Source: a virus. From it: a DNA stretch of 38,928 nt. Position 1 is the first letter of the stretch; every line of letters begins with the position of its first letter. The notes beneath the pieces were generated by a model. That model had not been told where the DNA came from. It ran no database searches and saw only the letters and a program-made list of their open reading frames with translations. Made by a program: the position numbers and the translations under genes. This document shows positions 4,855 to 38,894 of the stretch, one piece after another. The stretch is taken from IMG/VR virus record IMGVR_UViG_3300045950_000246, positions 1 to 38,928 of that record; one strand, 5' to 3'.

Positions 4855-5118
4855 ATGGTGAAGATAGCATGTGTTTGCGGATATTATGGAGAGTGCCATG
4901 AGTTTATACCATCGGGAACAGAGGCCAGTAGATGGTTTCTCTGTCCTGTATGCAAAAGAAAGTTCCGAGGACCGCTGTCATATAGAGAAATAGGAGTTCA
5001 GGTGATAGAAAACGGTCGCCGGTATGAAATCCCTCCTGCCGACTCTGTTGTACGAGAGATCAGGGAGTGGCAGCGAGACAAGCATCTTTTGCAAGAGGAG
5101 GTCAGAGCCTGTAAATGA
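4855..5118 (+). CDS. zinc-ribbon protein, 87 aa
   Basis: This 87-aa protein has a treble-clef/zinc-ribbon-like N-terminal half: C6, C8, C14 and a CPVC knuckle at about C30-C33. A basic/acidic helical tail follows (REIREWQRDKHLLQEEV). Its stop overlaps the start of the CII-like gene in a TAAATGAT arrangement, implying translational coupling. A nucleic-acid-binding role is likely from the fold but not shown. Confidence 0.65.
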   Translation: MVKIACVCGYYGECHEFIPSGTEASRWFLCPVCKRKFRGPLSYREIGVQVIENGRRYEIPPADSVVREIREWQRDKHLLQEEVRACK

Positions 5119-5621
5119 TAAGGAAGCCCGAGGATATATACGACGCGCTGAAGATCATGGCTCTGACGAATCCGCACGGGAAGTCGGATAAGGAGATCGC
5201 CATAGAGGTGCGCCCTGACCTGCCGGTGGAGCAGGCGGCGGCATGGCTGTCAAAGGTCACATCGAGGGACGGGGATAGGCATATGAAGCCCGGGGAGTTG
5301 GTGCGGTTCTGCAGGGCGTGCGGGAACGGGGAGGTCCTGGTCGGATATCTCTGCGATGAGCTTTCTTTTGAGAGGCCTGCACGAAAGCTGGTCATGACCC
5401 CTGAGAAGGAGCTGAAGGTCATAAGGCAGATCCTCAAGGAGAGGGGGATCGAGGTGGACGTGAAGGGGTACCTGGAGGAGCACAGGGAGGTGGTGAGTTT
5501 GGAGGTTTTGAAGCCCACCCCTCACCCTGACCCTCTCCCCGTGAGGGGCGAGGGAAGAGATGGATTAAGAGGGGGAGAGATAAGTGGGTGGTGGGCAAGG
5601 ATCAGGGGTCTGTGGGGGTGA
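5115..5621 (+). CDS. phage CII-like regulatory protein with in-frame palindromic insert
   Basis: A 168-aa protein. Residues 1-130 resemble the phage regulatory protein CII family: an early helical region with DKEIAIEVRPDLPVEQAAAW and an HMKPGELVRFCRACGN segment followed by a helix. The C-terminus from about residue 134 (PTPHPDPLPVRGEG...) is the translation of a dispersed palindromic element. It probably replaced the native end, since the last 20 residues are low complexity. It could control the lysis-lysogeny decision or early transcription. The start overlaps the upstream gene by 4 bp. Confidence 0.65.
   Translation: MIRKPEDIYDALKIMALTNPHGKSDKEIAIEVRPDLPVEQAAAWLSKVTSRDGDRHMKPGELVRFCRACGNGEVLVGYLCDELSFERPARKLVMTPEKELKVIRQILKERGIEVDVKGYLEEHREVVSLEVLKPTPHPDPLPVRGEGRDGLRGGEISGWWARIRGLWG
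5513..5554. repeat. palindromic element inside the CII-like gene
   Basis: CCCACCCCTCACCCTGACCC continues into CTCTCCCCGTGAGGGGCGAGG. It is read in frame as PTPHPDPLPVRGEG and is almost identical to the copy at 31714..31757 in the 2001-aa gene. Confidence 0.85.
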
Positions 5622-5713
5622 TATCCGGGGGATGGATACCGTGGCCACGGGAAGAGGCGTGATCCGCCGCCCTTCCGTCCCCTTAACCAGCGGGCCACTG
5701 ACGGAGGTGGGAG

Positions 5714-5995
5714 ATGATTACATACGAAGAGAAGGAATCAGGCAAGCCGGGAGAGAGGGTCGAAGAGATCAAGTTTCACGGGCTGACGATAGGGGAGATG
5801 ATCACTTATTTTGAGCCTTATACTCGTTTCCACGCGTGTTTCCATTCCAGGCGGAACACAACGAGGCTTATCCAGGGACATGGAGACACGAGAGAGAACG
5901 CTATGAGAGAGGCAATAGCATCTGCAAGGAGAGAGGCGGAAAGCCTCATAAAGGAGGCCGGGGAGTTGGAGAGGATATTATCTGTCTGCCTTTAA
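5714..5995 (+). CDS. hypothetical early protein, 93 aa
   Basis: This 93-aa protein is not recognised. It has a central FHACFHSRRNTTRL segment that could form a beta-hairpin, then a long charged helix (ENAMREAIASARREAESLIK), possibly coiled coil. GGAGGTGGGAG precedes the ATG. About 90 bp upstream, after the CII-like gene, contain no gene I can support. Confidence 0.6.
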   Translation: MITYEEKESGKPGERVEEIKFHGLTIGEMITYFEPYTRFHACFHSRRNTTRLIQGHGDTRENAMREAIASARREAESLIKEAGELERILSVCL

Positions 5996-6007
5996 AAGGA
6001 GGTCGCT

Positions 6008-6142
6008 ATGTGTGAGAGGGTTTGCGGGTTCTGCAAGGATTTTCCGGGGGACGGGCAGCAGTGCTTCAGGACGCTGGATGTTGTGAGCTACGCCGTGAAG
6101 GGTTGCGACAGGTGGAGGGAGAGGAGAGAGGAGGCGGCTTAG
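6008..6142 (+). CDS. Cys-rich microprotein, 44 aa
   Basis: A 44-residue frame starting MCERVCGFCKDFPGDGQQCF with AAAGGAGG 5 nt before the ATG. Cysteines at 2, 6, 9, 19 and 33 suggest a small zinc site. The end is highly charged (RWRERREEAA). It sits 12 bp after the previous gene in the early operon. Function is unknown. Confidence 0.6.
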   Translation: MCERVCGFCKDFPGDGQQCFRTLDVVSYAVKGCDRWRERREEAA

Positions 6143-6145
6143 AAC

Positions 6146-6198
6146 CGGGGACAGTCCCGAATCTACGGCCTGCGGCCCGTAATTCTGGGACAGTCCCC
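6146..6198. repeat. GGGGACAGTCCC palindromic element
   Basis: GGGGACAGTCCC at the left and GGGACAGTCCCC at the right enclose ACGGCCTGCGGCCCGT. The related right half CCCGTAATTCTTGGGACAATCCCC is seen at 19837..19860, and GGGACTGTCCC halves bound the elements at 31931 and 34526. Confidence 0.7.
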
Positions 6199-6233
6199 TT
6201 GGTATAAATAACCTGTAGGGGAGGTGATGGAGA

Positions 6234-6587
6234 GTGGGTTTGGAGAAGTTCAGTCTTGATGCGTTGCAGAGGACGAAGGTCGGCGCGGAGTTTGAGGAGG
6301 CCCTGAAGACGGTCCAGGAGTCGTTTGTCAAGGACAGAGATGTTGCAGGAGCCAGGGCTATTACTCTCACCATAGAGTTTAACACCAACGCCGCGGGGGA
6401 GAAGTACAGGACGGCGGAGATGAAGGTTTCTGTGAAGACGCCGCGGAGGAGCATGAAGAGCATTGCCGTGCTGGACGAGCACGGGCAGCTAAAGATTGAC
6501 ACGACGAGCAATGATGCGCGGCAGCCGGAGTTATTTGATCAGGGTCAGGGAAGCGGGGAACTTAAATTAGTGGATGGAGGTGTTTGA
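6234..6587 (+). CDS. hypothetical early phage protein, 117 aa
   Basis: A 117-aa protein (GTG start; GGAGGTGATGGAGA upstream). Residues 40-75 form alternating beta segments (ARAITLTIEFNTNA, YRTAEMKVSVKT). The tail is acidic and ends near ELFDQGQGSGELKL. It lies directly before the DUF2303-type gene and overlaps it at TGATG. The pairing suggests the two act together, perhaps in DNA metabolism. I do not recognise a family. Confidence 0.65.
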   Translation: MGLEKFSLDALQRTKVGAEFEEALKTVQESFVKDRDVAGARAITLTIEFNTNAAGEKYRTAEMKVSVKTPRRSMKSIAVLDEHGQLKIDTTSNDARQPELFDQGQGSGELKLVDGGV

Positions 6588-7366
6588 TGGAAGGGCAGGA
6601 GATCAAATTAACATTGTGCGGCGGTAAGAAGCCGCAGGACGGATTTTCCATAAACGACAAGGTTTACGGGGAGAGGCATTTTATCAGGGAGGGTGACAGA
6701 TACAAGGAGGTTACTCTCCCGCCCCTTATCCCTGTAAGGACCCTTAAGGACAGGTCGTACACGGTGACGGACTCCGCTTCTTTTGTTTCGTACGTGAAGC
6801 GGTACGGGAATCCCGATGAAGGGATAATCTTCTTCAATTCGACCGGGGTTGTGATGTTCTTTGACGAGAAGAACAGGGTTGAGAAGGTGAGCCTGCCGTT
6901 TGCGAAGTCCCTTGAACTGATCGCTTTCCTTGGGAATGATAACGGCAAGGAGTTTGACCAGAAGAGGCTTGCGAAGACGATTGAGACGTTCCCGGAGGTT
7001 GTGGCGGACAGCGATATTCTTCTTCCCTGCCTTACGCTCCTCCAGATGTCCAAGCAGGTGGATTTTGAGAGCAACATTGACCCGCATAATCACACGTTTA
7101 TTTACAAGGACAAGAGCGGGGACCAGACGACACGGCTTCCGAAGCAGATTGTGTTGAATCTGCCGTATTTTGAGGGGTCGGTGAACAAGGTGAATGTCCT
7201 GGCGGATTTCGAGGTTGAGATGCCGACGAGCGCGGGGGCTAAGCCTGTGTTCAGGCTGCATAACCCGCGGGCTGAAAGGACGGAGAGGGAAGCAGTGGAG
7301 AAGGAGATTGAGACCATTAAGGCTGAACTTCCGGGGTGGATGTTTGTGCAAGGGAGCGCGGGGTAG
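6587..7366 (+). CDS. DUF2303-like phage protein
   Basis: A 259-aa protein starting at the ATG 6 nt after GGAGG; a TTG one codon upstream is less likely. The motif order fits the phage DUF2303 family: an early YTVTDSASFVSYVKRYG block, then VDFESNIDPHNHTFIYKD and QIVLNLPYFEGSVNKVNVLA followed by FRLHNPRAE. Members of this family sit in phage early regions and have no established function. The C-terminal residues RTEREAVEKEIETIKAEL form a charged helix. Confidence 0.75.
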   Translation: MEGQEIKLTLCGGKKPQDGFSINDKVYGERHFIREGDRYKEVTLPPLIPVRTLKDRSYTVTDSASFVSYVKRYGNPDEGIIFFNSTGVVMFFDEKNRVEKVSLPFAKSLELIAFLGNDNGKEFDQKRLAKTIETFPEVVADSDILLPCLTLLQMSKQVDFESNIDPHNHTFIYKDKSGDQTTRLPKQIVLNLPYFEGSVNKVNVLADFEVEMPTSAGAKPVFRLHNPRAERTEREAVEKEIETIKAELPGWMFVQGSAG

Positions 7367-7374
7367 GAGGTTGT

Positions 7375-7848
7375 ATGACGGTTGAGCAGGCGGTGTTGGG
7401 GGTTTTGATAGCTAATTATCCTATTGTGCGGAATCACGTGGTGCAGACGGCGCACCCGACTTACCAAATGTCGGGGCTGGCGAGGCTCCGGGGGTTGAAG
7501 CAGGATGGGATTGTGTCGTATCGGTTCGATTCGAGGGACAATACGTACCACGTCCTGACGCCGAGGGGGGAGCTGGTTAGGGCCCTGGAGGCTATGAAGA
7601 GGGGGGAGAAGGACCCGGTGAAGATAGTGGCTGCGATGAGGGGGTTTAAGCCCGCCTCTCAACCCCACCCTCACCCCCGGATCGAGTCCGGGGCAGGCTC
7701 TGACCCTCTCCCTGGGGGAGAAGGGGAGATGGGGATAACAGGCAAGATGCCTGATGCCGATGAGGAGACGCCGGAGCAGAGGGCCAGGATGCTGGAGGAG
7801 ATAAGGAGGTTCAGGGCAAGCTTGGAGAGCGCAGATGCGCAGGCGTAA
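7375..7848 (+). CDS. small winged-helix-like protein with in-frame palindromic insert
   Basis: A 157-aa protein; the ATG at 7375 follows GGAGGTTGT. Residues 1-65 (MTVEQAVLGVLIANYPIVRN ... LARLRGLKQDGIVSYR) resemble a winged helix with a beta-wing ending in TYHVLTPRG. Residues about 95-123 (QPHPHPRIESGAGSDPLPGG) are the translation of a palindromic element. A charged helical tail follows. It is probably a DNA-binding early protein; function is unknown. Confidence 0.6.
   Translation: MTVEQAVLGVLIANYPIVRNHVVQTAHPTYQMSGLARLRGLKQDGIVSYRFDSRDNTYHVLTPRGELVRALEAMKRGEKDPVKIVAAMRGFKPASQPHPHPRIESGAGSDPLPGGEGEMGITGKMPDADEETPEQRARMLEEIRRFRASLESADAQA
7661..7730. repeat. palindromic element inside the winged-helix-like gene
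   Basis: The unit runs from ACCCCACCCTCACCCCCGG through GAGTCCGGGGCAGGCTCTGA to CCCTCTCCCTGGGGGAGAAG. The same composite occurs almost unchanged, but intergenic, at 19281..19343. Confidence 0.85.
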
Positions 7849-11192: not shown

Positions 11193-11651
11193 ATGGGCGG
11201 AGAGGGCAGCGGCAGGTTGCCGGAAAAGGCGACGGTGGGGGAGCTCCTGATGGACGACAAGGCGTTCAAGGAGCACATAACAAACCAGACCGTAGCCTAT
11301 ATCCCCAGGGTTATCAACGAGCTTTACGACATTGTCCTCGGAAACGCCGAGGACGAGATATGGGACTCAAAGAACTGCAAGCTGGTGAAGAGAAAGCCTT
11401 CCCTCGACACGAGGGTCAAGGCCGCGAAGGTGCTGAAGGAGATGACCCTTGACAAGGTCGTCTCAGATAAGAAGACGATAGACACCGAGGGGCAGGGGAG
11501 CCTGCTGAACCTCATTGACGATCTGACCGCGGTCGCAAGGGCCGTGGAGAAGGAAAAGGCAGAAAAGGCGAGGGTTGTAGGGGAACTCTCTACTGTGAAG
11601 CCGCATGATGCGGCGGACGCAGGGGGACCCCTTGAGCAGCGTCACAGTTGA
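11193..11651 (+). CDS. putative terminase small subunit
   Basis: A 152-aa protein directly before, and overlapping by 47 bp, the large terminase gene. It starts MGGEGSGRLPEKATVGELLM. The middle part (SLDTRVKAAKVLKEMTLDKV) is helical. The last third is a long charged helix (AVARAVEKEKAEKARVVGEL), suitable for oligomerisation. Small terminases are poorly conserved, so the call relies on position, size and helical content. GGAAGC precedes the ATG at moderate distance. Confidence 0.6.
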   Translation: MGGEGSGRLPEKATVGELLMDDKAFKEHITNQTVAYIPRVINELYDIVLGNAEDEIWDSKNCKLVKRKPSLDTRVKAAKVLKEMTLDKVVSDKKTIDTEGQGSLLNLIDDLTAVARAVEKEKAEKARVVGELSTVKPHDAADAGGPLEQRHS

Positions 11652-14600
11652 CACAACCAGCCAGTTCCGCTCATTAGTCAAGACCTTCTGGGATGACCGG
11701 GTAGGTTTCTGCAAGCACATCCTTGGTTTCACCCCATCCGACCAGCAGGGCCAGGTCCTTGAGGCCCTCGATTCCAACGATCACGTAGCGGTAAAGTCCG
11801 GGATAGCGATAGGGAAGACTGCCCTTGAGGCGAGCCTCATACTGCACTACTCGTCCTGCCGGTATCCGTTCAAGTCCCCTTGCACGTCCCCCTCCAAAGA
11901 CAACCTGAGGAACATCCTCTGGCCAGAGTTGGGCCAGTGGCACAAGAAGATGCACCCCGTCTTCAAGGACCGCCTCGTCTGGACAAAGGAGAAGCTCTTC
12001 TTGAAGGAGGATGAAAACTCCTTCTTCGTGGCCAGGACGGCCTCAAAGGACAATCCCGAATCGCTCCAGGGATTCCATTGTTTGTCGGACGAACATCAAA
12101 TCTTGACCAAACGAGGATGGTTGGGTATCGATGACATCTGTGAAACCGACCAAGTGTTATCAGTCCCGGTAAATGGCACTGACGCTGAATGGATGCCAGT
12201 GACTGCTGTGTATCGCTATCCATTTTCAGGGACACTGAATGTGTTTGATGGGAAGACCGTAAGTTTTGCAATGACTGATAATCATCGCTGCGTGGTGAAG
12301 AATCAATGGCGAGACCAGAAATGGCAGTTCAGGGAATTCAACTCGCTGTGGACCAGTTTCTTTGTCCGACGTACTTCTGGGTGGAAGGGAGAACAGGTGC
12401 TTGCCCCTGAACCGTTTGCAGCTTACGGATGGACTGCGGAACAATTCGCAGAATTCGTTGGATTCTGGATCGGTGATGGCGGCATACGTCCGCACAGCAG
12501 CGGTAAATATTACGAGGTGCAACTTTATCAAATCAAGGATGATGATGGCTATGTGGAGCGCCTGTTAAAGAGCATACCTTGGACCAAGGGACGCGATTAT
12601 TACGCATTCAGTGACTTGGCTGTTTGCCAATGGCTGATTGATAATGTAGGCCGCCTACAACCTGACCGCATCATTCCCCGTCTGATTCTGGACGGTCCGC
12701 CCTCGGTGCTGGAAGCGTTCTGTGATGGGCTATGGCATGCAGATGGCAGCTTTGTTGATGGCACAAAGCGACAATTGCATAACACGTCAAGCACGCTTAT
12801 GGATCAAGTCCAGGAAGTGTTGATCAAGCTGGGCCGTCCCGGGACGATAGGGGTCAATGTTGCGTGTGGGACACAGAAAGAGGCAGATGGTGTTCGTTTT
12901 GAGGCAAAGCATGATTGTCTTTCGATTGGATGGACAAAGAGACCGTCTGATACGCTCATACACAGCAGCAGCGTCAAGAGCATGCCGTATCAAGGGCGAG
13001 TATGGTGTATTGCAACTCCATACCAGACTTTTTACACTCGCCGGAACGGCCGTGTTTTCATTAGTGGAAACTCAGATTACGTCTTCCGCATAGTTGACGA
13101 GGCCTCCGGCGTTTCGGAGGACATCTTTGACGTCCTGGAAGGGGCCACCGGGACCAAGGAGACCAAGTCCCTGACCTGCGGGAACCCCACCCGCCTGGAA
13201 GGCTCTTTCTTCGACGCATTCAACAAGCAGAAGGAATTCTACAAGGGCTTTACGTTCTCATCCCTTCAGTCCCCATTCGCTAAGGACAGGGTCATAGAGC
13301 GGATCCGCAAGAAGTTCGGGGAAGACTCGAACATGTGGAGGGTGAGGGTCCTGGGAGAGTTCCCGCTTAGAGACGGGGACTCCTTCATCCCGTTCGATCT
13401 GGTGAGTGATGCCCTTATCAGGGAAATCCCGGACCAGAAAGATGCTCCGAAGGTCTTCGGGTGCGACATAGCGCGTTTTGGCTGCTTCGATGACAAAACC
13501 GAGATATTGACGGATGAGGGATGGAAATATTTTAATGGTCTCCATGGAAGAGAAATGGTCTTGTCTCTCGCTGGAGAAAGGGCATTATGGGCGGAGATCG
13601 CGAAGGTTCACAGGTACGAATATGCCGGGGATCTAAACCTCTACGAAGGGGAGTCGGTAAATTTTTGCATAACAGACAATCACAACCTGATAGTCCGCTC
13701 CAACCCAAAGGCTGATCAGTATGCCATAAGGCAGTTCAAGGATCTCCCGAAGGAATTTGTCATAAAGCGGACAAATGAATGGGAGGGTAGCAATCCCGAA
13801 AGAATCACGTTTACATCTGAGTATGAGATGCCAAAGGGAGGGGTAAGGGTCAAGGAGTGGTCGTTTGATTTTACCGATTGGGCCAGATTTCTTGGATGGT
13901 TTGTGAGTGAAGGGAATGTATACAAGGAGAGACGCAAGGACGGCAGATACAGAATCCTGATTGCACAGGTCAAGGCGCAAGAAAAGGAGATGATCAAACA
14001 TCTCTTGGACAATATGGGGATTATATTTCAGGATAAAGGGAGGCAGATTGAGTTTTCAAATAACGAAATAGGTAAACACCTGATCGAGCACTGCGGAGGA
14101 AGGCAGCCTGTGAGGAGGGTCCCGAAATACATAAAAGAAGGCACCACTGAGGTTATCGAGGCATTCCTTGAGACGTTTGCCTTGGGGGATGGGACACAAA
14201 ATAGCAACGGAACCGGCAAAACTTATTTTTCTTCCAGTGAATTGTTGATAGACGATATCCAGGAGATGCTTGTAAAGATCGGGAAGGCCGGGAAAAAGAT
14301 ATTAAGACATAAAAAGGGCACGGAATTCAATATCGAAGGCAGGACGGTTAAGCGGCGCAATGACTGTTATGCGGTCTATGAGTGCGGAAGGGGTGCGGAC
14401 AGCTGGATATCAAAGGGGAAGATACAAAAGGTCGCATATAAGGGGGTTGTCTACTGTGTATCAACACCGCACAGGACAATAATGGTCAGGCGCAACGGAT
14501 GTGTCATGTGGAGCGGGAACTCAGACGACACGGTTATCGCAATCCGTCAGGGTGATGAGTTCAAGCCGTTCCACGTGCTCAGGAACAAGAGCACCATGGA

Positions 14601-15087
14601 GGTGGCCGGTTTCATCGCGCACCTCGCCAACAAGGAGAAGCCCCAGGCGATCTTTGTGGACGTGATAGGCATAGGCTCCGGGGTCTACGACAGGCTGGAG
14701 GAGCTCGGCTTCCCTGTGATCCCGGTCAACGTCTCCGAGTCCCCAGCCCTTGACGCGAGGCAGTACAGGAGGCTCAGGGACGAGCTCTGGGGGCTGATGA
14801 GGGACTGGCTGGAGACGAGAAGAGGAAGGATATGGGACAACGAGGAGGGGGACCTGGTGGGGCAGCTGACCACCCCGAAGTACAGGATACTGGAGAGCTC
14901 CGGCCTCATCGTCATAGAGAGCAAGGACGACATGAAGAAGAGGGGGGTGGCATCCCCCAACGTGGCCGATGCCTGCATACTGACCTTCGCCCAGCCCGTG
15001 TCCTCCTACCAGAGGGAGATGGAGGATCTTTACGGGCGGGAGGAAGAGGAGGCTTACGCTCCCATGGATGCTGAGGCGGGGTACTGA
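11605..15087 (+). CDS. terL: terminase large subunit interrupted by two inteins
   Basis: An 1160-aa precursor of the packaging motor ATPase/nuclease. Removing the inteins (residues 159-489 and 627-972) leaves a 483-aa protein of normal TerL length. The Walker A-like loop is at G66-T72 (SGIAIGKT). The adjoining exteins form GFH/SDYVFRIVDEASG, which carries Walker B (RIVDEA), and GCDIARFG/SDDTVIAIR, the first acidic motif of the RNase H-like nuclease. The C-terminus ends with a nuclease region rich in acidic residues (VASPNVADACILTF). The gene overlaps the small terminase upstream, and its stop overlaps the portal ATG (TGATG). Packaging requires both splicing events, since each intein breaks an active-site motif. 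Confidence 0.95.
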   Translation: MMRRTQGDPLSSVTVDTTSQFRSLVKTFWDDRVGFCKHILGFTPSDQQGQVLEALDSNDHVAVKSGIAIGKTALEASLILHYSSCRYPFKSPCTSPSKDNLRNILWPELGQWHKKMHPVFKDRLVWTKEKLFLKEDENSFFVARTASKDNPESLQGFHCLSDEHQILTKRGWLGIDDICETDQVLSVPVNGTDAEWMPVTAVYRYPFSGTLNVFDGKTVSFAMTDNHRCVVKNQWRDQKWQFREFNSLWTSFFVRRTSGWKGEQVLAPEPFAAYGWTAEQFAEFVGFWIGDGGIRPHSSGKYYEVQLYQIKDDDGYVERLLKSIPWTKGRDYYAFSDLAVCQWLIDNVGRLQPDRIIPRLILDGPPSVLEAFCDGLWHADGSFVDGTKRQLHNTSSTLMDQVQEVLIKLGRPGTIGVNVACGTQKEADGVRFEAKHDCLSIGWTKRPSDTLIHSSSVKSMPYQGRVWCIATPYQTFYTRRNGRVFISGNSDYVFRIVDEASGVSEDIFDVLEGATGTKETKSLTCGNPTRLEGSFFDAFNKQKEFYKGFTFSSLQSPFAKDRVIERIRKKFGEDSNMWRVRVLGEFPLRDGDSFIPFDLVSDALIREIPDQKDAPKVFGCDIARFGCFDDKTEILTDEGWKYFNGLHGREMVLSLAGERALWAEIAKVHRYEYAGDLNLYEGESVNFCITDNHNLIVRSNPKADQYAIRQFKDLPKEFVIKRTNEWEGSNPERITFTSEYEMPKGGVRVKEWSFDFTDWARFLGWFVSEGNVYKERRKDGRYRILIAQVKAQEKEMIKHLLDNMGIIFQDKGRQIEFSNNEIGKHLIEHCGGRQPVRRVPKYIKEGTTEVIEAFLETFALGDGTQNSNGTGKTYFSSSELLIDDIQEMLVKIGKAGKKILRHKKGTEFNIEGRTVKRRNDCYAVYECGRGADSWISKGKIQKVAYKGVVYCVSTPHRTIMVRRNGCVMWSGNSDDTVIAIRQGDEFKPFHVLRNKSTMEVAGFIAHLANKEKPQAIFVDVIGIGSGVYDRLEELGFPVIPVNVSESPALDARQYRRLRDELWGLMRDWLETRRGRIWDNEEGDLVGQLTTPKYRILESSGLIVIESKDDMKKRGVASPNVADACILTFAQPVSSYQREMEDLYGREEEEAYAPMDAEAGY
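12079..13071 (+). other. intein 1 in TerL (Hint + LAGLIDADG), Walker B side
   Basis: 331 residues from C159 to N489, with Ser490 as the +1 nucleophile. Block A is CLSDEHQILTKRGWLGIDDI. Block B includes FAMTDNHRCVV with the conserved His. Homing endonuclease motifs are EFVGFWIGDGGI and LEAFCDGLWHADGS, both with acidic residues intact. The C-terminal block reads RRNGRVFISGN/S, so the penultimate residue is Gly rather than the usual His. Of 21 Arg codons, 19 are CGN, unlike the AGG/AGA-rich flanking gene, which points to foreign origin. Confidence 0.93.
13483..14520 (+). other. intein 2 in TerL (Hint + LAGLIDADG), nuclease motif
   Basis: 346 residues from C627 to N972, with Ser973 as +1. Block A starts CFDDKTEILTDEGWKYFNGL and block B has FCITDNHNLIV. 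The two endonuclease motifs are RFLGWFVSEGN (Glu in place of the first Asp, as in many members) and EAFLETFALGDGT. The end is RRNGCVMWSGN/S, again with penultimate Gly. Arg codons are about 19 AGR to 6 CGN, close to the host gene, so this element is older here or came from a similar genome. Confidence 0.93.
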
Positions 15088-17057
15088 TGACTGAAGAGAT
15101 CAAAAAGACAGGGAAGGACGGCACGGCCCTCGCGACCTACGTCAGGGGGATATTTGAGTCGTTCAAGACCGCGAGGCTCCCCTTCGAGGAGACATGGGCC
15201 GAGTGCTGGTACAACTTCCTGGGGCAGTACCAGCCCGAAAAGGTCTGGAAGCAGAAGACCGAGGGGAGGAAGGGCAGGAGCAAGCTGTTCGTCCGCCTAA
15301 CCACGGTGAAGTGCAGGACTGCCCACGCCAAGATATCGGACGTGCTATTCATGGGTCGGAACGTGATGCCCTTCGACGTGGAGGCCCTGGAGCCTGAGAT
15401 GTTCGGGGTCCCCCCGGAGGCCGCCGCCGATGCCTCAGAGAGGATGAAGAAGAGGCTCAAGGACCACTTCAAGAAGATATCGCTCAAGAAGAAGATGGAC
15501 GTGGGGATACTGGAGATGGCCATATTCGGGACGGCGGTCCTGAAGGGGCCGATCATCACCACCAAGAGAGTCCCCCGGGTGAAGATGAGGACCATAGGAG
15601 GGATGCTCCTCAGGGACATAGACCCTGAGGCGAGCCCATACGAGATAGTCAGGGTGGAGGAGACGGTCCCGGATGTGGACAGGGTCTCGATCTGGAACTA
15701 CTACGTGGACCCCCACGCCCCTACCCCCGCCGACTCCATAGGGGAGATCCACTTCGAGAGGATCCTCCCCGCACGTTTCAAGGAGCTGGCATACCAGGGG
15801 GGGTATGACGCTGAGGCTGTCATGGAGGCCGCCGAGAGGGCCAAGAAGGGGGACGAGGACGACAAGACCTACGTCCAGCTCGGAGACAACTACACCGGCG
15901 AGAACGGGGTGAAGGACGAAAAGGTCAGCATCCTTGAGTACTGGGGGCTGGTACCGGTGTCCATGCTGAGGGACGCAGGGTGCGGGGAGATACCTGAGGA
16001 CGTGGCGGAGGACGATGCCATAGAGGCCCTGGTGGTCCTGGCAGCAGACGGGGTGGTGATTAAGGCCTGCGTGAACCCCATTGGAAGAAGGCCTTTCTAC
16101 GTCTGCCCTTACAAGGAGAAGCCTGGGCAGATTTACGGCGCGGGGGTTGCCGAGGATATGAGGGACAGCCAGAAGATGGTCAACTCCTCCGCCAGGCTAT
16201 ACGTGGATAACAAGGCCCTATCTGGGAACCTGATGACGGCCGTGAACCTGGACAAGATAAACACAAAGAGGACGAAGGACCTGAGCGTATATCCAGGAAA
16301 GACCTGGTACGTGAAGGGGCAGGCCAACCCCAGGGAGGCCATAGACGCCGTCGCTTTCCCCGACGTGACCTTCGGGATAAAGGACATGATCGAGATGTTC
16401 ACGAGGTTCGCCGACGACGAGACGGGGATACCGAAGTATTCATCTGGAGGGGAGGCCTCTTTCCTGAATAAAACCGCCACAGGGATGTCCATGCTCATAA
16501 CCCAAAGCAACATAGGGCTCAAGAGCACCATAGAGAACATAGACGACCATTGGATAGAGCCGATGGTGGAGGCCTTCGGGGACTTCTTCAACGCCTTCGG
16601 GGGAGGCGTGAACGTCCCCCTCAGGTACAAGGCAACGGGCGCCGACTCCCTTGTTGCCAAAGAGATAAAGATGGAGCAGTACATGAAGTTCATGCAGATA
16701 ACCTCCAACCCCCAGGACGCCATATTCATGGACAGGCCTAAGATGATGCGCTCCATAGCGAGGCTGCTGGAGACGGAGGATGTCATGAGGAGCGATGACG
16801 AGATAGGGAAGATCATGAAGGAGATGGGGAGGCAGGCCACGCAGCCCAAGGACTGGAGGGAGGTCGTTTCCATAGACAGGCTTTACCCTATGCTTGCGAG
16901 GAGCGAGCAGGTGCAGATTTTGGCGGAGCTGGGGATACAGCCGGATATGCAGGCTATTAATAACCCCCCTCAATCCCCCCTTACTTTAAGGGGGGACAAG
17001 TCAGTACAGCCCCCTCTTGAGGTAAGAGGGGGAGCCGAAGGCGGGGGAGTTATATGA
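15087..17057 (+). CDS. portal protein (podovirus-like)
   Basis: A 656-aa protein right after TerL with a 3-bp ATG/TGA overlap. The length and order suit the dodecameric portal of short-tailed phages. Supporting features are a PFEETWAECWYNF-type N-terminus, the conserved IEMFTRFADDETGIPKYSSG region, then ATGMSMLITQSNIGLKSTIE and a C-terminal helical stretch. The family assignment is from context and overall pattern. The last 30 residues (NPPQSPLTLRGDKSVQPPLE and onward) are translated palindromic element sequence, so the native stop was probably displaced by an insertion. Confidence 0.85.
   Translation: MTEEIKKTGKDGTALATYVRGIFESFKTARLPFEETWAECWYNFLGQYQPEKVWKQKTEGRKGRSKLFVRLTTVKCRTAHAKISDVLFMGRNVMPFDVEALEPEMFGVPPEAAADASERMKKRLKDHFKKISLKKKMDVGILEMAIFGTAVLKGPIITTKRVPRVKMRTIGGMLLRDIDPEASPYEIVRVEETVPDVDRVSIWNYYVDPHAPTPADSIGEIHFERILPARFKELAYQGGYDAEAVMEAAERAKKGDEDDKTYVQLGDNYTGENGVKDEKVSILEYWGLVPVSMLRDAGCGEIPEDVAEDDAIEALVVLAADGVVIKACVNPIGRRPFYVCPYKEKPGQIYGAGVAEDMRDSQKMVNSSARLYVDNKALSGNLMTAVNLDKINTKRTKDLSVYPGKTWYVKGQANPREAIDAVAFPDVTFGIKDMIEMFTRFADDETGIPKYSSGGEASFLNKTATGMSMLITQSNIGLKSTIENIDDHWIEPMVEAFGDFFNAFGGGVNVPLRYKATGADSLVAKEIKMEQYMKFMQITSNPQDAIFMDRPKMMRSIARLLETEDVMRSDDEIGKIMKEMGRQATQPKDWREVVSIDRLYPMLARSEQVQILAELGIQPDMQAINNPPQSPLTLRGDKSVQPPLEVRGGAEGGGVI
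16958..17050. repeat. double palindromic element forming the portal C-terminus
   Basis: CCCCCCTTACTTTAAGGGGGG (16974..16994) and CCCCCTCTTGAGGTAAGAGG (17012..) are adjacent inverted repeats of the CCCCCTCAATCCCCCC family. They are in frame with the portal and end just at its stop and at the overlapping ATG of the next gene. Confidence 0.85.
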
Positions 17058-29522: not shown

Positions 29523-30498
29523 CTATCTGTACGGGAAGAACCCGCACTCGGAAAGAGCATCGATGCTGACAAGGATGGCGTACAGCCAGCCCGACGATAA
29601 GTACGGGTATGCGGCATGGTCAAGGATACCAGCCATGGCCATGGCGGGGCACGAGATGGCGCAGGCCGAGAAGTGGGATCAGACACGAGGCGAAGAGGTC
29701 AAGAAGGCATCCGCCGACCAAAAGAGGGAGGAAGCGCGCAATAGGACGATACAGACCGTGATCAACATAGCCGGTTCCCCCGCCTTAGACCCTAACGGGA
29801 AGCGGAACACCATTAAGAGCTTGATAGAGGGGCGCAAAGATGAGTTGGGTCTTGACCCCGACGTCTACGTCGGGCTTGTGGAGGATGGGCCTGAGTATAC
29901 CAATATAGGACTTCAGAAAAAAAAGGATGGGGGGCAGTTGCTCTTGGCGATCCAAAAGCAATCTGGCGCGCCTTTCGTTTTTGATAAAGGCCAGTGGAGG
30001 GATATGACGGATGAGGACCTGTCCCTCTTAGGAGAGATGCCGAAGCCGGAGGGCCGAAAGAGGCTGGACCGCGAAACGCACCTGGGCGGCGGGAATTGGC
30101 AGAAGGAGGAGTCTTATGACGAAGGGGTGAAGTGGAGCCCTGTCGGGAAGCCGTACAAGAAGGAGGGAGGAGGGGGCGGCTCTTTGACGGAGAAGGATGC
30201 CGTTTCGGAGTTCCGCCAGCATGTGAGCGACCTTGATTCTCTTAACAAGGCAAAGGCCTTGATTTTGAAAGGGGTTGACCCGTTGACCGGCGCCTATATC
30301 CCCCAGACCCAGATAGCGGATGCCTTAAAGGTAATCGACCCCCAGATTTTGCAGTTGGAGGGATATATCAAGAAGACGTTCCCTGAGCAGTGGTATAGGT
30401 ATAAGCCGGCTGCGCCTGCGGCGCCGGCGGCGGGGCCTGGCAGGCCCACGCCTCAGCAGGCAATGGAGGAATTGAGAAGGAGGGGGCTGCTTAAATAA
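29509..30498 (+). CDS. internal virion protein, 329 aa
   Basis: A 329-aa protein with GGAGG 6 nt before the ATG. The N-terminal part has AAWSRIPAMAMAGHEMAQAE, a hydrophobic-helical stretch. The middle (about 110-240) is beta/loop with FDKGQWRDMTDEDLSLLGE. The tail is Ala/Pro-rich and ends QQAMEELRRRGLLK, a motif seen at the ends of phage structural proteins. Position between S74 and the 2001-aa gene suggests an ejection protein partner. No family is recognised. Confidence 0.65.
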   Translation: MEGLNYLYGKNPHSERASMLTRMAYSQPDDKYGYAAWSRIPAMAMAGHEMAQAEKWDQTRGEEVKKASADQKREEARNRTIQTVINIAGSPALDPNGKRNTIKSLIEGRKDELGLDPDVYVGLVEDGPEYTNIGLQKKKDGGQLLLAIQKQSGAPFVFDKGQWRDMTDEDLSLLGEMPKPEGRKRLDRETHLGGGNWQKEESYDEGVKWSPVGKPYKKEGGGGGSLTEKDAVSEFRQHVSDLDSLNKAKALILKGVDPLTGAYIPQTQIADALKVIDPQILQLEGYIKKTFPEQWYRYKPAAPAAPAAGPGRPTPQQAMEELRRRGLLK

Positions 30499-33400
30499 TG
30501 AACCTCAGCCAGTACTCAGATGAAGATCTGCTGAAGATAGCAGGGATGCAGCCCGACCTTTCCGGGGTCTCGGACGAGGAGCTTTACCGGATCGCAGGGA
30601 TCCCCGTGATAAAAAACGCCCCTGAGCCGACCTTCTGGGAAAAGGCCGCGGCGGGGGTGAAGGACCTCTTCGGGTACAGGGAAGGCGAGGGGATGAGGCC
30701 TTCGGAGATTGCCGACGCCCAGATAAGGCTTGAGGCAAGAAACAAGGGAGTATCCAAAGAGGAGCATATAAGGCAGGTCCACCCCGAAGGCGAGGCCCTC
30801 AGGAGGGCAAGGCAGTACGGGAAGGATGCGGCGAGCGGGGCGGTGGGGACCGTGGAGGGCATGGCCGGATCCCTGGAGTGGCTCACAAACGGGGCGGTAG
30901 GCAGGGACCTCGCAAACCAGGCGAGGCTTTGGCAGAGGGAGCTATCCCCTGAGGAGGGAGGCTTCGGTCATGCCCTGGCCTCCGGCGCAGGGTCCATGAC
31001 AACCTTCTTTGTCCCAGGCATGGGGATAGCGAAAGGGGCATCGGTTGTTGCCAGGGTCGGGCCGAGGCTGGCCGCATGGCTTGGGTCCTCCACAGCTACG
31101 GCCATGGAGGCCATGACTGAGGCAGGGCAGGTCTACAGGAACGTCCTTTCGGATACCAAGGATGTCGGAAAGGCGGAGAAGGCGGCCACGGAGACATTCT
31201 GGTGGAACCTCCCTCTCCTGGCGATCACGAACAAGCTCGGTGTCTTCGGTGAGACTGGAGGACCCCTAAAGAGGGCGATTGTGTCTTCACAGATGGAAGG
31301 GGCGCAGGAGGCGGGGCAGGAGTATATATCAGGAAAGGCTGAGGGGCGCGATGTCACCCTTGGGGAATACCTTACATCTTACGGGGTCGGCGCCGTGACG
31401 GGAGGAGGGTTCGGGGCTCTCTCTGCCAGGATGGGGCCGAAGGGTGTTGTCTCTCCGCAGGAGCCGGTTGACATAAAGGATGTCCCCACGAAAGAGCTTG
31501 CCAGGATCGCGGGTGTCGAGGAGATCCTTGCCGAGGGGGAGGTTAATGCGAAGGAGTATATAGAGAGGGTGAAGGGGGAGAGGGCGCAGGAGAGTAACGC
31601 CCCCCAGCCCCCTCTTGATGCAAGAGGGGGAGAAAAGACTGAGCATCTCGGCGAGGTGGTTGGTTACAATGCCAGGGATGGGAAGCCGATCATTGATATG
31701 GAGGCGAAGGAAGCCCCCACCCCTCACCCTGACCCTCTCCCCGTGAGGGGCGAGGGGAGTATCAGGGAAGAGGAGAAGGCGAGAAGGTCATGGCTGGAGC
31801 AGGCGGCTCTTGACAGCCCCACGATGGACGATTTTATAGAGACCCTCACCAGGCGCGGTGAGTACCCGATGGCGATCAAGGCCGCGGGGAACATCCATAG
31901 GCTGAGGGAGATGTACGAGGGCATAAAGAAGGGGACTGTCCCCTCACCCCCAGCCCCTCTCCCAATGGGAGAGGGTGGCCAAAGGCCGGGTGAGGGAGTC
32001 GTAGAATCGGGACTGTCCCCGGAAAAGAGTAACCCCCCTCAGTCCCCCCTTAATCCAAGATGGGAGGAAAAGGCGGAGGCCCCTGCCATCCCCTTTAAGG
32101 ATGAGATCAAGTCTCGCTTCCCAGACCTCACCGATGAGGACATATCTTTCATAGCAAAGGAGACGGCCGCCAAGTTCGATTCCATAGCGAATGCGGTGAA
32201 GGACCCTGTAAGGAGGGGAGGGGCCGCGTCCACGCGGGATGCATTCCTGAAGGTTGCCGAAAGCGGGGAGGTCCCCCTCGCCAGGAAGGGTAAGAACCAG
32301 GGGAAGCCCCTCAGGGCCTTTGAGGTTGGGCGGGAGGAGTTTGAACACCAGCTCCGGGCGTTCAAGGAGCAGAGGGACAGCCACAGGCCCGCGGGGGAGA
32401 TCCGGAAGTTCGGGGACCTGGATATAAAGCCTGGGGACAGGGTCATCACCCCTAACGACACATACACCCTCCAGCCGGACGGCGAGACGCTCCAGGACCA
32501 TGAGCCGATGAAGCTCGACCCTTGGGATGATATAGAGGTGGTGGATGTGCGGAAGGCCCAAAATCCCCCCGCTTCGCTTCCCCCTTTGACAAAGGGGGAT
32601 AGAGACCAGGAGATGTTTGCCAACGTCAACCGGATTCCGCCTACAGGATTGAAGACCGACAGGCCCCAGGCCGAGGATTTGCTCGAAGGGTTCAGGAGGC
32701 CGGAGGAGGACAGGCAGGAGGGGATGTTCGGGGATGTGTCGCTGTCGGTTGACAGGGCCGGAAAGCGTTTGCCTAAAGAGTCTGAAGGTTCTGCCGGCGA
32801 CCACCCTTCGCATAAAGCGAAGGGTCAATCCCTCCGACCTGCATCAGACTCTAATTTAAGTATAGGGGAAATTGAGAGAGATGTCAAGCGGGTTGCAAAT
32901 CTTGCAAGCATCATAAAAGAGATAGAGAGGATCGCTGCGCCGGGGACAAGGGTCGAGGCAAAACACAGGATCACAATCCCACCGGACCAGCTCCGCATTG
33001 CCCTGGAGAAGTGGGGGGAGGGGGCCGATGCCGATATTAAGGTCAGGGGGGCCCACAGGGTCGTAAGGCTTGACCAGGGTCAATTCTCCTCCCTGATAGA
33101 GCTTTCCCTGGAGAACATGGACCCCAATACCACCCCTTACCATGAGGCGTTCCATTCGGTTCAAGAGATTCTATTGAACGATGAGGAGATGAGAAGGCTT
33201 GCGGAGAGGTTCCCTGCCAGGGACGGGGTTTCCTCCCATGAGAGACAGGCCCAGGCCTTTGCCCAATATGCGGCGGGTAGGCAGGCCAGGTATCCTGTAT
33301 GGGTGAGGGGGATATTCGCGAGGATAAAGAGATTCCTTGACTCAGTCAGGAGCTACCTGAGGGGGCAGGGTTTCAGAAGCGTAAACGACATATTTGAGAG

Positions 33401-36400
33401 GGCTTATAAAGGGGAGTTGAGGGAGAGGGCTGTGGGGATCTCCGAGATGGGGGATGTGTCCCTTGATGTTGATCAACGGTCATTTGCCCGACAGATAGAG
33501 GGCTTTCTGAAGGGGAGGCTCCCGAAAGATGCCCTTATTGCCGTAGGGAAAACCCCTATTGTTTTACAGAAACTGGGAGCAAGGCCTCTTCCTGTAGTTA
33601 TGACGCAGCGTACGGCAGCGAAGGTTCTGCATGTTAAGCACGGCATCCCTGCCGACTTGCTTAAGGGTTTGCCTGCCGCTCTCAGTGACCCGATAATGGT
33701 CTTTGACTCGGCTACCCAGAAGGATAGTTTCGTGGTAATGACGGAGTTGGTCTATGAGGGAAAGACAGTTATTGCCGCGGTTCACCTTAATAAAGAGATA
33801 AACAGGGTTGAGGTAAATGATATCGCGAGTGTGTATGGCAAGGATAGGAACGAATGGTTTACAGAGCAGATGGAGAAGGGGCGGTTACGGTATATGAACA
33901 AAGAGAAGAGCCATTCATGGTCCGTGACCGTGGGGCTCCAGTTGCCCAAGATGAGAGGAACCACAAACGGCTCTACATATATTATACTTACAGAGGCAGA
34001 TATTGTCAAGAATGATATGTCTCTTGATATAGAACAGCGCACAGTCAAATCCACCGACAATCTATTGCAGAAGATAAACCCGAGGGCAGCGGAGAATGTG
34101 AAGGTCCAGGGGAGGAAGAAGGACCTGGGTTTTGTGAAGGGGCTCATAGGCTCCCCCGGCACCATAGAGGGGAAGGCCCGTTATTACGTCGTCCATGCCA
34201 AGAACGTGGTGCACAAGCAGGACAGGCTCCGGGGGATGATTGACGAGAGGATGGGGGAGATATTCAGGCCCCTGAAGACAAAGGAGCTTAGGCAGGAGTT
34301 TGAGGCCCTCTCATGGATGGGGGATGCGGAGGGGAAGAACTACACGGCCGAGGAGCTTTCCGAGATGGGCGTTTCCCCCACTGTGCAGACCGCGTACCTG
34401 AAACACAGGAGGTTCCACGACCAGGTGTGGAGGCTCCTGGCATCCCACAGGAAGGCATACGGCGGGGAGACGGGACACAGGGAGGGGCACATCCCCCATC
34501 TGTTTGAGAACTGGAACGTTTATGAGGGAACTGTCTCCTCACTCCCAGCCCCTCTCCCAATGGGAGAGGGTGGCCGAAGGCCGGGTGAGGGAGCGGTAGA
34601 ATCGGGACTGTCCCCGGAGAAGAAGATCGTCGGGACATTCAGGAGCCTGAAGGAGGCCACGGCCTTTGCCAACGGTCTGAGCAGGGAGAAGAACTACGTC
34701 ATAAGGCCGAAGACCTTTCATATGCCGGATGCCCTGATCGCCAAGACGGTCTTGAAGGACGCCTCATTCTTCCGGCTCGTGGAGAAGCTGGAGGAGGGTT
34801 TTGAGATCACCAGGGAAGAGGCCTTCGAGATGACCAACGAGGTGGCGAGGAGGAAGAACAGGAGGAGGTTCTTCGGGCACGCCATGCAGAGGACGGGGCA
34901 GACCGGGTTCAGGAAGGACGACCTCCATCAGATCCTTAAGGAGTATTACAACTCCACGGCCAGGTATGTGGCCCTGGACTACTTCAAGGCGAGGGTGGTT
35001 CCTAAGTTCGAGAAGGACTTCGGGGTTGAGCTGGGGAGGGCATCGAATGCCCTCAGGGACAAGAACACGGCCAGGTATGTGGAGGAGTATATAAACGATG
35101 TGAACGGCGCTCCGGGGATGATAGAGGAGCTGCTGGACTCGTCCATAAAGAACGCCTTCGGGAAGCATATCAGGAGCGAGAGGCCCACCATCTGGGCGGT
35201 GAACAAGGCCCTCCACGCCACTGCCGTTCTCAAGCTGGGACTTTTTAACCTCGCCGCAGGGGTAGTCAACCTCTCCCAGCTCACCAACACATTCTCCAAG
35301 GTCCCTGCGAAACATTTCGCCTCGGCCTTCGAGTCCTCCTTCCATCCGTCGGAGAGCGAAAGGGCAATCCTCAGGAGGATCGGGGTTGCCTTTGACCTGG
35401 GGCTCTCCGACACGGGCGGTTACTCCATGACCCTCAAGGGGGGGAAAGCTGTCAGGGCCTCCATGTTCTTCTTCAGATGGGCCGAGAGGAAGAACAGGGT
35501 CATCACCGCCCTTGCCGCATACAGGCAGGCGAGGAAGGACCTGGGGATGGGTGAGAGGGAAGCGAGGCATTACGCCAGGGAGATCGTAGACAAGACCCAG
35601 TTCGACTACTCGGTGGCGGACACGGCCAGGATATTCCGAAATCCTGCGGGCCGTCTCCTCGGGCAGTTCAAGCCCTATGCCGTAAAGGAGATTGAGTTCA
35701 TCATGGGGCTCAAGGGGGCTGAGAATATAAAGTTCTGGATACCTATCCTCCTCATGGCGGGGACGGCAGGGGTGCCTCTCATAGAGGGCCTTTTCGACAT
35801 GATTGAGTGGCTTACGGGGAAGGACCCTCTCACGGAGACGAAGAAGTTTTTGATGGAATGGGCCGGGGAGGATGAGGACAAGAAGAGGGTTGCTGAGATA
35901 GCCATGTACGGCGTTGCCTCCCAGATCGGGGTCGACATGTCCCGCAGGGTCGGGACGGGGGACGTGCTGCCGAAGAGGGCATCTGACCTCCTGGGGCCGA
36001 CGATCAACACCCTCATGAACGCCAAGGAGCTTCTGAGCGGGGACAAGACGGAGCTGGTAAGGTCCCTGGCCCCATCGGTCGGGAACCTTGTCACTGCCAT
36101 AGAGACGGCGATGAACGATATGGAGGTGGCGGACCCTTACCGGAGGGAGAGGCTGAAGTACACTGCGACACCTTCGGAGGCGGCGATAAAGGGCCTCGGT
36201 TTCAGGCCTATAAAGGAGGCGAAGCTTTCAGACCTGGAGGAGGTTCGGCAGTACGAGACGGGGCATTACACGGAGGCCCAGCAGGAGTATGTGGACAGGG
36301 CCATAGAGGCCCTGAATGACGGGGATGCTGAGGGGTTTGCGGAGGCGATCAAGAAGGCCGCGGAGGAGGGGGTTATCGTGTACGGCAAGGCCATAAAAAA

Positions 36401-36503
36401 CGAGTTCCTTCAGAAGCTCCTCCCGCAGGAGATGAGGACCCTGCTCAAGACGAGAAACATGCTGAAGGGGGGGCAGTTGGAGAGGATGGAATTCCTGGAT
36501 TAG
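30498..36503 (+). CDS. 2001-aa polyvalent internal virion protein with metallopeptidase- and MuF-C-like domains
   Basis: The largest gene (18% of the prophage length). The N-terminus has repeated (Y/V)SDE(D/E)LLKIAG-like motifs at about 6-17 and 23-34 and again near 328-338. A Gly/Ala-rich membrane-like region follows (about 90-320). At 882-886 is HEAFH, a zinc-peptidase HExxH, followed about 40 residues later by ERQAQAFAQYAAG, which suits the third ligand region. Residues about 1000-1180 (IAVGKTPIVLQKLGARPLPV ... ASVYGKDRNEWFTEQMEKGR) match the MuF C-terminal domain type. The C-terminal third has helical repeats, a hydrophobic segment near 1746-1766 (WIPILLMAGTAGVPLIEGLF) and a long charged helical tail. 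It is probably ejected with the DNA. Seven palindromic elements interrupt it in frame. Confidence 0.85.
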   Translation: MNLSQYSDEDLLKIAGMQPDLSGVSDEELYRIAGIPVIKNAPEPTFWEKAAAGVKDLFGYREGEGMRPSEIADAQIRLEARNKGVSKEEHIRQVHPEGEALRRARQYGKDAASGAVGTVEGMAGSLEWLTNGAVGRDLANQARLWQRELSPEEGGFGHALASGAGSMTTFFVPGMGIAKGASVVARVGPRLAAWLGSSTATAMEAMTEAGQVYRNVLSDTKDVGKAEKAATETFWWNLPLLAITNKLGVFGETGGPLKRAIVSSQMEGAQEAGQEYISGKAEGRDVTLGEYLTSYGVGAVTGGGFGALSARMGPKGVVSPQEPVDIKDVPTKELARIAGVEEILAEGEVNAKEYIERVKGERAQESNAPQPPLDARGGEKTEHLGEVVGYNARDGKPIIDMEAKEAPTPHPDPLPVRGEGSIREEEKARRSWLEQAALDSPTMDDFIETLTRRGEYPMAIKAAGNIHRLREMYEGIKKGTVPSPPAPLPMGEGGQRPGEGVVESGLSPEKSNPPQSPLNPRWEEKAEAPAIPFKDEIKSRFPDLTDEDISFIAKETAAKFDSIANAVKDPVRRGGAASTRDAFLKVAESGEVPLARKGKNQGKPLRAFEVGREEFEHQLRAFKEQRDSHRPAGEIRKFGDLDIKPGDRVITPNDTYTLQPDGETLQDHEPMKLDPWDDIEVVDVRKAQNPPASLPPLTKGDRDQEMFANVNRIPPTGLKTDRPQAEDLLEGFRRPEEDRQEGMFGDVSLSVDRAGKRLPKESEGSAGDHPSHKAKGQSLRPASDSNLSIGEIERDVKRVANLASIIKEIERIAAPGTRVEAKHRITIPPDQLRIALEKWGEGADADIKVRGAHRVVRLDQGQFSSLIELSLENMDPNTTPYHEAFHSVQEILLNDEEMRRLAERFPARDGVSSHERQAQAFAQYAAGRQARYPVWVRGIFARIKRFLDSVRSYLRGQGFRSVNDIFERAYKGELRERAVGISEMGDVSLDVDQRSFARQIEGFLKGRLPKDALIAVGKTPIVLQKLGARPLPVVMTQRTAAKVLHVKHGIPADLLKGLPAALSDPIMVFDSATQKDSFVVMTELVYEGKTVIAAVHLNKEINRVEVNDIASVYGKDRNEWFTEQMEKGRLRYMNKEKSHSWSVTVGLQLPKMRGTTNGSTYIILTEADIVKNDMSLDIEQRTVKSTDNLLQKINPRAAENVKVQGRKKDLGFVKGLIGSPGTIEGKARYYVVHAKNVVHKQDRLRGMIDERMGEIFRPLKTKELRQEFEALSWMGDAEGKNYTAEELSEMGVSPTVQTAYLKHRRFHDQVWRLLASHRKAYGGETGHREGHIPHLFENWNVYEGTVSSLPAPLPMGEGGRRPGEGAVESGLSPEKKIVGTFRSLKEATAFANGLSREKNYVIRPKTFHMPDALIAKTVLKDASFFRLVEKLEEGFEITREEAFEMTNEVARRKNRRRFFGHAMQRTGQTGFRKDDLHQILKEYYNSTARYVALDYFKARVVPKFEKDFGVELGRASNALRDKNTARYVEEYINDVNGAPGMIEELLDSSIKNAFGKHIRSERPTIWAVNKALHATAVLKLGLFNLAAGVVNLSQLTNTFSKVPAKHFASAFESSFHPSESERAILRRIGVAFDLGLSDTGGYSMTLKGGKAVRASMFFFRWAERKNRVITALAAYRQARKDLGMGEREARHYAREIVDKTQFDYSVADTARIFRNPAGRLLGQFKPYAVKEIEFIMGLKGAENIKFWIPILLMAGTAGVPLIEGLFDMIEWLTGKDPLTETKKFLMEWAGEDEDKKRVAEIAMYGVASQIGVDMSRRVGTGDVLPKRASDLLGPTINTLMNAKELLSGDKTELVRSLAPSVGNLVTAIETAMNDMEVADPYRRERLKYTATPSEAAIKGLGFRPIKEAKLSDLEEVRQYETGHYTEAQQEYVDRAIEALNDGDAEGFAEAIKKAAEEGVIVYGKAIKNEFLQKLLPQEMRTLLKTRNMLKGGQLERMEFLD
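31600..31640. repeat. in-frame palindrome 1 in the 2001-aa gene
   Basis: CCCCCTCTTGATGCAAGAGG at 31608 and on forms a hairpin read as PQPPLDARGGE. It matches the second element at the portal end (17012..17034). Confidence 0.8.
31714..31757. repeat. in-frame palindrome 2 in the 2001-aa gene
   Basis: Near-identical to 5513..5554 and read as PTPHPDPLPVRGEG, exactly the frame used in the CII-like protein. Confidence 0.85.
31931..32022. repeat. in-frame composite element 3 (92 bp) in the 2001-aa gene
   Basis: GGGGACTGTCCCC at the left and GGGACTGTCCCCGG at the right enclose CAGCCCCTCTCCCAATGGGA and GGGTGAGGGAG sequences. The twin at 34526..34617 is about 92% identical by eye and translated in the same frame. 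Confidence 0.88.
32029..32075. repeat. in-frame palindrome 4 in the 2001-aa gene
   Basis: CCCCCCTCAGTCCCCCCTTA then ATCCAAGATGGGAGG. Read as NPPQSPLNPRWEEK, matching the portal C-terminal insert NPPQSPLTLRG. Confidence 0.78.
32561..32605. repeat. in-frame palindrome 5 in the 2001-aa gene
   Basis: CCCCCTTTGACAAAGGGGG hairpin, preceded by AATCCCCCCGCTTCGCTT and read as NPPASLPPLTKGD. Confidence 0.75.
32777..32852. repeat. in-frame 76-bp element with terminal inverted repeats
   Basis: Perfect 9-bp ends AGAGTCTGA/TCAGACTCT enclose a second perfect inverted repeat, CCCTTCGC-ataaa-GCGAAGGG (32804..32824). The open reading frame passes through it. Confidence 0.8.
34526..34617. repeat. in-frame composite element 7 (92 bp) in the 2001-aa gene
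   Basis: Twin of 31931..32022. Both translate from GTV(P/S)S to SGLSPEK. The left outer half here has mutated (GGGAACTGTCTCC) while the right half is intact. Confidence 0.88.
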
Positions 36504-38774: not shown

Positions 38775-38783
38775 CGGAACGAA

Positions 38784-38801
38784 AAAGGGTTTGCGTACAT
38801 G

Positions 38802-38813
<12 letters not shown>
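38784..38813 (-). terminator. intrinsic terminator of tRNA-Lys at attR
   Basis: The 12-bp arm hairpin is as at 44..73 but with loop TACATG, and is followed on the minus strand by TTTTTC. The whole 30 bp is the exact reverse complement of the attL copy. Confidence 0.85.

Positions 38814-38894
<81 letters not shown>

Follow-up and report, generated by a model that had tools for sequence, protein, structure and literature searches.

Two predicted class 1 LAGLIDADG inteins in the large terminase gene of a prophage

The window analysed here, the 38,928-nucleotide whole of IMG/VR record IMGVR_UViG_3300045950_000246, contains a gene for a large terminase (TerL) at 11605..15087 on the + strand, whose 1160-residue frame starts with ATG, is open throughout and encloses two long insertions. 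Sequence comparison and structure prediction confirm that this TerL carries two in-frame segments assignable to class 1 LAGLIDADG inteins, one at the ATPase centre and one at the nuclease centre. An initial annotation of the DNA had proposed two full LAGLIDADG inteins at these centres, a proposal upheld by all tests run, and the lengths given there (331 residues for intein 1, I1; 346 for intein 2, I2; 483 for the joined exteins) proved exact when the open reading frame and its boundaries were re-read. A prophage TerL was very probably invaded twice, by inteins that are distant sisters and that would excise themselves to leave a 483-residue ATPase-nuclease. Read from the sequence, this account draws on the boundaries, conserved residues and predicted fold of the segments, on empty sites in homologues, on two site-specific lineages in which inteins resemble one another more than their exteins do, and on +1 Ser residues that are derived.

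A terminase gene interrupted at two conserved sites

The features of the gene all lie on the + strand. The N-extein (11605..12078) comprises the ATPase domain up to LQGFH and includes a Walker A-like motif, SGIAIGKT (11797..11820; extein residues 65-72). I1 (12079..13071; precursor residues 159-489) occupies site 1 before Walker B and is followed by a middle extein of 137 residues (13072..13482), which runs from the Walker B strand, VFRIVDE (13081..13101), to nuclease motif I, GCDIARFG (13459..13482), where the first catalytic Asp is extein D290. I2 (13483..14520; precursor residues 627-972) occupies site 2 in this motif, and the remainder of the nuclease domain, with motif II (VDVIGIGSG, 14656..14682) and motif III (SPNVADA, 14953..14973), forms the C-extein (14521..15084).

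Used as one query against a viral contig collection, the whole precursor found no relative, after which extein and inteins served as separate queries. The outer and middle parts match phrog_5902 and the terminase family phrog_2 in PHROG. Removal of I1 and I2 leaves a joined extein of 483 residues that is a normal TerL, with matches in 295 phage records (best 2e-100) and with Walker A, Walker B and the three nuclease acids intact in an alignment with annotated TerL records. Together with linkage to portal and capsid genes, these residues place the protein in the TerL family.

I1 follows the invariant His of QGFH (LQGFH/SDYVFRIVDEASG, the slash marking the junction) and, as first annotated, lies directly before the Walker B strand. 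For I2 the preceding residue is an invariant Gly (GCDIARFG/SDDTVIAIR); the earlier placement of this intein in nuclease motif I stands, with the refinement that it enters five residues past the first nuclease Asp and does not fall on that catalytic residue. The joined 483-residue sequence aligns straight across both places with intein-free TerLs, 206 of them uninterrupted at site 1 and 215 at site 2, and the residue at -1 is His in 206/206 and Gly in 215/215, respectively. Homologues without the segments at both places argue against their being native TerL domains; each is an in-frame insert at a conserved site, absent from homologues, as expected of class 1 inteins. Among these homologues are four TerLs 52-59% identical to this one (L174, L175, L254 and L292), with no insert at either site.

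Splicing and endonuclease features of the two segments

Both segments match inteins of unrelated phage proteins end to end in tblastn searches, with best values of 4e-16 for I1 and 6e-27 for I2, as the initial annotation would predict. The matching inteins sit in phage DNA methylases, ribonucleotide reductase, nucleotidyltransferases and other terminases. The guanine-plus-cytosine fraction at third codon positions is 0.77-0.85 in the exteins versus 0.50 in I1 and 0.56 in I2, a drop that fits the expectation for foreign DNA.

The residues expected of splicing-competent inteins are largely in place. Each segment begins with Cys1, has the block B TxxH motif as TDNH (residue 66 in I1, residue 64 in I2) and ends in SGN followed by a +1 Ser (SGN/S). 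Each also contains a pair of LAGLIDADG motifs whose eighth residue is acidic: FVGFWIGDG (12454..12480, D133) and CDGLWHADG (12721..12747, D222) in I1, and FLGWFVSEG (13888..13914, E143) and LETFALGDG (14167..14193, D236) in I2. A match to Pfam LAGLIDADG_3 (8e-15) agrees with these motifs. The intact block A and B residues, paired endonuclease motifs, terminal Asn and Ser nucleophile that had been reported are therefore found in both segments. A class 3 mechanism was rejected, since Cys1 is present, no Trp follows TDNH and the block G residue is Ser rather than Thr; of the class 3 Trp-Cys-Thr triplet (blocks B, F and G), the block F Cys alone is present.

Structure prediction points to the same architecture. 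AlphaFold models reach predicted local distance difference test scores of 93.3 for I1 and 94.6 for I2, and their top Foldseek matches are the TliVMA, PI-PkoII and PI-SceI inteins, aligned across the whole model. Whole-intein structures outrank endonuclease-only or Hint-only ones, consistent with a predicted Hint splicing fold bearing an inserted endonuclease in both segments.

Site-specific lineages and their meeting in one gene

Searches of IMG/VR with the two inteins recovered relatives that keep to the site of their query: I1-like inteins occupy site 1 in L110, L309 and L310, and those resembling I2 occupy site 2 in L094-L103. Full-length site-2 carriers are frames of 859-886 residues with one intein each, and both inteins together occur in no other TerL among those found. 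Inteins sharing a site are 42-57% identical, versus mostly 19-38% for the exteins around them (those of L096 and L099 alone are close, at 49%), which suggests that each intein moves horizontally between distant TerLs; such same-site transfer would fit homing. In a tree of 74 rows, the site-1 clade (100/100) and the site-2 clade (99/94) are sisters (100/94), a relation that persists without long branches and that needs wider sampling, given that resemblance to I2 or I1 determined the ranking of candidates. A recent duplication inside this gene was ruled out, each intein being much closer to same-site inteins of other phages.

Other intein positions also occur in TerL. Inteins within Walker B (VVVDEA/SG and alike) mark a further site in L118, L121, L145, L150 and L164 and form no clear single clade in the tree. 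Genes with several inteins of the same family include a portal protein with three (L138:476-6307), a family B DNA polymerase with two (L126:1349-5644) and a nucleotide-sugar epimerase with two (L162:6749-9046).

The nearest TerLs bear on how the +1 Ser residues arose. Besides the four intein-free relatives named above, they include L255, from a prophage-like region of a Nitrospirae metagenome-assembled genome (MAG), whose TerL (4932-7610) is 60-66% identical and holds one intein at a third site, in nuclease motif II (VDVIGIG/SGVYDRL). In L174, L175, L254, L292 and L255, the residue corresponding to +1 is Ala, Ala, Ala, Ala and Gly at site 1, and Asn, Asp, Asp, Asp and Asp at site 2. None of these residues is able to accept acyl transfer in splicing, which makes both +1 Ser residues derived within the clade. 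Most simply, the derived Ser was probably co-converted with the invading intein; conversion of Pro to Ser at the MCM-d site has been described for a haloarchaeal intein (PMC10643990). Alternatively, Ser may have arisen by mutation before the inteins came, as it is common at these positions in the wider family (102/206 intein-free TerLs at site 1 and 54/215 at site 2). The idea that +1 Ser is confined to invaded genes was accordingly rejected for the wider family and holds solely within the nearest clade. The codon TCA, rare in this phage (about 9-13% of its Ser codons), encodes both +1 Ser residues and was also considered as a mark of co-conversion; it was found too weak a sign, with other codons in use at same-site inteins elsewhere.

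Several observations weigh against two active, invading inteins. The penultimate residue is Gly in both I1 and I2, in place of the usual His; block F of I1 lacks its His; and a single endonuclease serving both sites is unsupported, the likeness of the site DNA being at chance level. The two empty sites match at 11/24 and 13/30 positions, values equalled or beaten by 5/460 and 19/454 other in-frame sites of the gene, respectively, and reached at hundreds of positions in the window. In class 1 inteins a penultimate His is usual and not universal. The penultimate Gly is common to all relatives in alignment A4, and a phage intein with this residue splices to completion, its change to His having slowed splicing (PMC5050341). 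The non-canonical residues could be taken as signs of inactive or decayed inserts, or of a broken gene, in a prophage unable to package; this is highly improbable, given the open frame, the retention of all nucleophiles and endonuclease acids, the confidently predicted folds, the intact terminase residues and the sharing of Gly by the relatives.

A shared origin inside TerL, in which one intein jumped between active-site positions and both copies were kept here, is rather doubtful, whether the jump is dated to this gene's line or to an older one. The placement of I1 and I2 in sister clades, both seen in TerL alone, their end-to-end identity of 28-31% and their joint absence from the other TerLs found are all compatible with such a jump. 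However, I1 and I2 are each 44-53% identical to own-site inteins in other phages, far above their identity to each other, so any jump would date far back, and this gene would have gained its two copies separately. The DNA of the two sites is also not significantly similar, and, because I1 and I2 served as the search queries, more closely related inteins at other sites could have escaped notice. A more specific history is put forward tentatively: the sister TerL lineages would share a single ancestor, an intein that relocated from one catalytic centre of the enzyme (ATPase or nuclease) to the other, and this gene would be the first seen to reunite them, with each insertion co-converting a splicing-dead +1 residue (Ala/Gly at site 1, Asp/Asn at site 2) to Ser. 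That the inteins act as regulatory switches, with conditional splicing delaying terminase maturation until packaging, appears unlikely. A regulatory role has been proposed for the TerL of Microcystis phage Mic1 (PMC7156551), and conditional splicing has been shown for one of two Mycobacterium smegmatis DnaB inteins (PMC6195587), but no sign of regulation is seen in the sequence here. A patchy distribution, foreign composition and uninterrupted sites in the nearest relatives are in keeping with simple mobile parasites, and full inteins with an endonuclease are said to be usually of the active, mobile kind (PMC6195587).

Under the favoured account of two invasions, two independent homing insertions would have occurred, one per site, each endonuclease cutting an intein-free TerL allele at one conserved run of active-site codons and the cut allele being repaired by copying the intein in. 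Such codon runs would be hard for a phage to change without loss of ATPase or nuclease function. The 1160-residue precursor would then be translated and processed through attack by Cys1, transfer to the +1 Ser and Asn cyclisation, the last proceeding with Gly where the penultimate His is usual; excision of both inteins would join the exteins as the 483-residue packaging ATPase-nuclease. Splicing itself, cutting by the endonucleases and inactivity of the unspliced TerL are inferences, the last drawn from the position of the inserts between the two Walker motifs and within the core of the nuclease. It is therefore reasonable to expect packaging to be doubly dependent on splicing.

Prophage setting and comparison with known intein-bearing terminases

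The TerL gene is directly preceded by an open reading frame overlapping its start (11193..11651, +), a candidate small terminase by position with no family match, and adjoins a portal or head-tail connector gene (15087..17057, +). A 66-bp perfect direct repeat at 62-127 and 38802-38867 lies over the 3' end of a tRNA-Lys gene (38819-38894, -), with an integrase (282-1388, -) beside the left copy. The repeats look like attL and attR, and the window would thus be one prophage, almost exactly bounded. The same hairpin, GGGTTTGCG...CGCAAACCC, adjoins each repeat (at about 42-73 and 38782-38813), its 6-base middle reading CATGTA on the left and the reverse complement, TACATG, on the right. An open reading frame near the integrase (2064-2777, -) with carboxypeptidase-regulatory-like/SdrD B-like domains is odd cargo for a prophage end, and a 2001-residue frame at 30498-36503 partly resembles very large phage proteins whose function is unknown, among them a DarB-like antirestriction profile matched towards the end of the frame. 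The closest TerLs from named genomes belong to Geobacteraceae and Nitrospirae MAGs, in a comparison set that may omit records near the window's own genome.

The novelty that the initial annotation implied for two inteins in one TerL does not hold, as two cases precede it. The TerL of Mic1 (MN013189) has two inteins, one in the ATPase domain and one in the nuclease domain (PMC7156551), and so resembles the present gene in having one per domain. It lies on a distant branch, at 18% identity, and differs in both sites: its ATPase-domain intein is in the C-motif region (LLTG/C...HN/TPKGYG) with +1 Thr and its nuclease-domain intein in motif III (QDHL/C...SN/CDALRY) with +1 Cys, as opposed to insertion before Walker B and in motif I, each with +1 Ser. 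In Mic1 the large intein alone has an endonuclease, whereas LAGLIDADG motifs are found in both inteins here. The crAss-like phage OBYQ01000140 has TerL in three in-frame pieces with two inteins (PMC7886860), described as Hint-Hop in a gene with recoded TAG, in contrast to LAGLIDADG inteins and the standard code.

Other inteins offer further points of comparison. The mycobacteriophage TerL inteins a-g include class 1 and class 3 members with demonstrated splicing and endonuclease activity, their seven sites all in the ATPase domain and none in the nuclease domain, and some phage inteins in that survey share the penultimate Gly of I1 and I2 (PMC5050341). The best-scoring matches from named phages, the TerL intein of Gordonia phage GMA6 for I1 and an intein of Prevotella phage Lak-A1 for I2, are 22-26% identical and occupy other sites. 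The haloarchaeal MCM-a and MCM-d inteins likewise form a pair of site-specific inteins close together in one gene, and an invading MCM intein may need conversion of the +1 residue to Ser (PMC10643990); that system is an archaeal helicase tested in vivo, the present one a phage TerL known from its sequence.

Although the two-intein TerL is already described, its history is better defined here than in the earlier cases. What is new, on sequence evidence, is the co-occurrence of two site-specific lineages, each found elsewhere alone, always at the same position, in distant TerLs. The gene contributes two well-defined places of insertion in TerL, and the close relative L255 a third, in nuclease motif II. 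When Mic1 is counted as well, each of the three nuclease motifs of the enzyme and its main ATPase motifs now have an intein recorded next to them. The gene thereby offers a compact phage case of how inteins may enter sites at which the +1 residue does not permit splicing, and of how two homing elements may share one gene, though neighbouring inteins reportedly hinder mutual homing.

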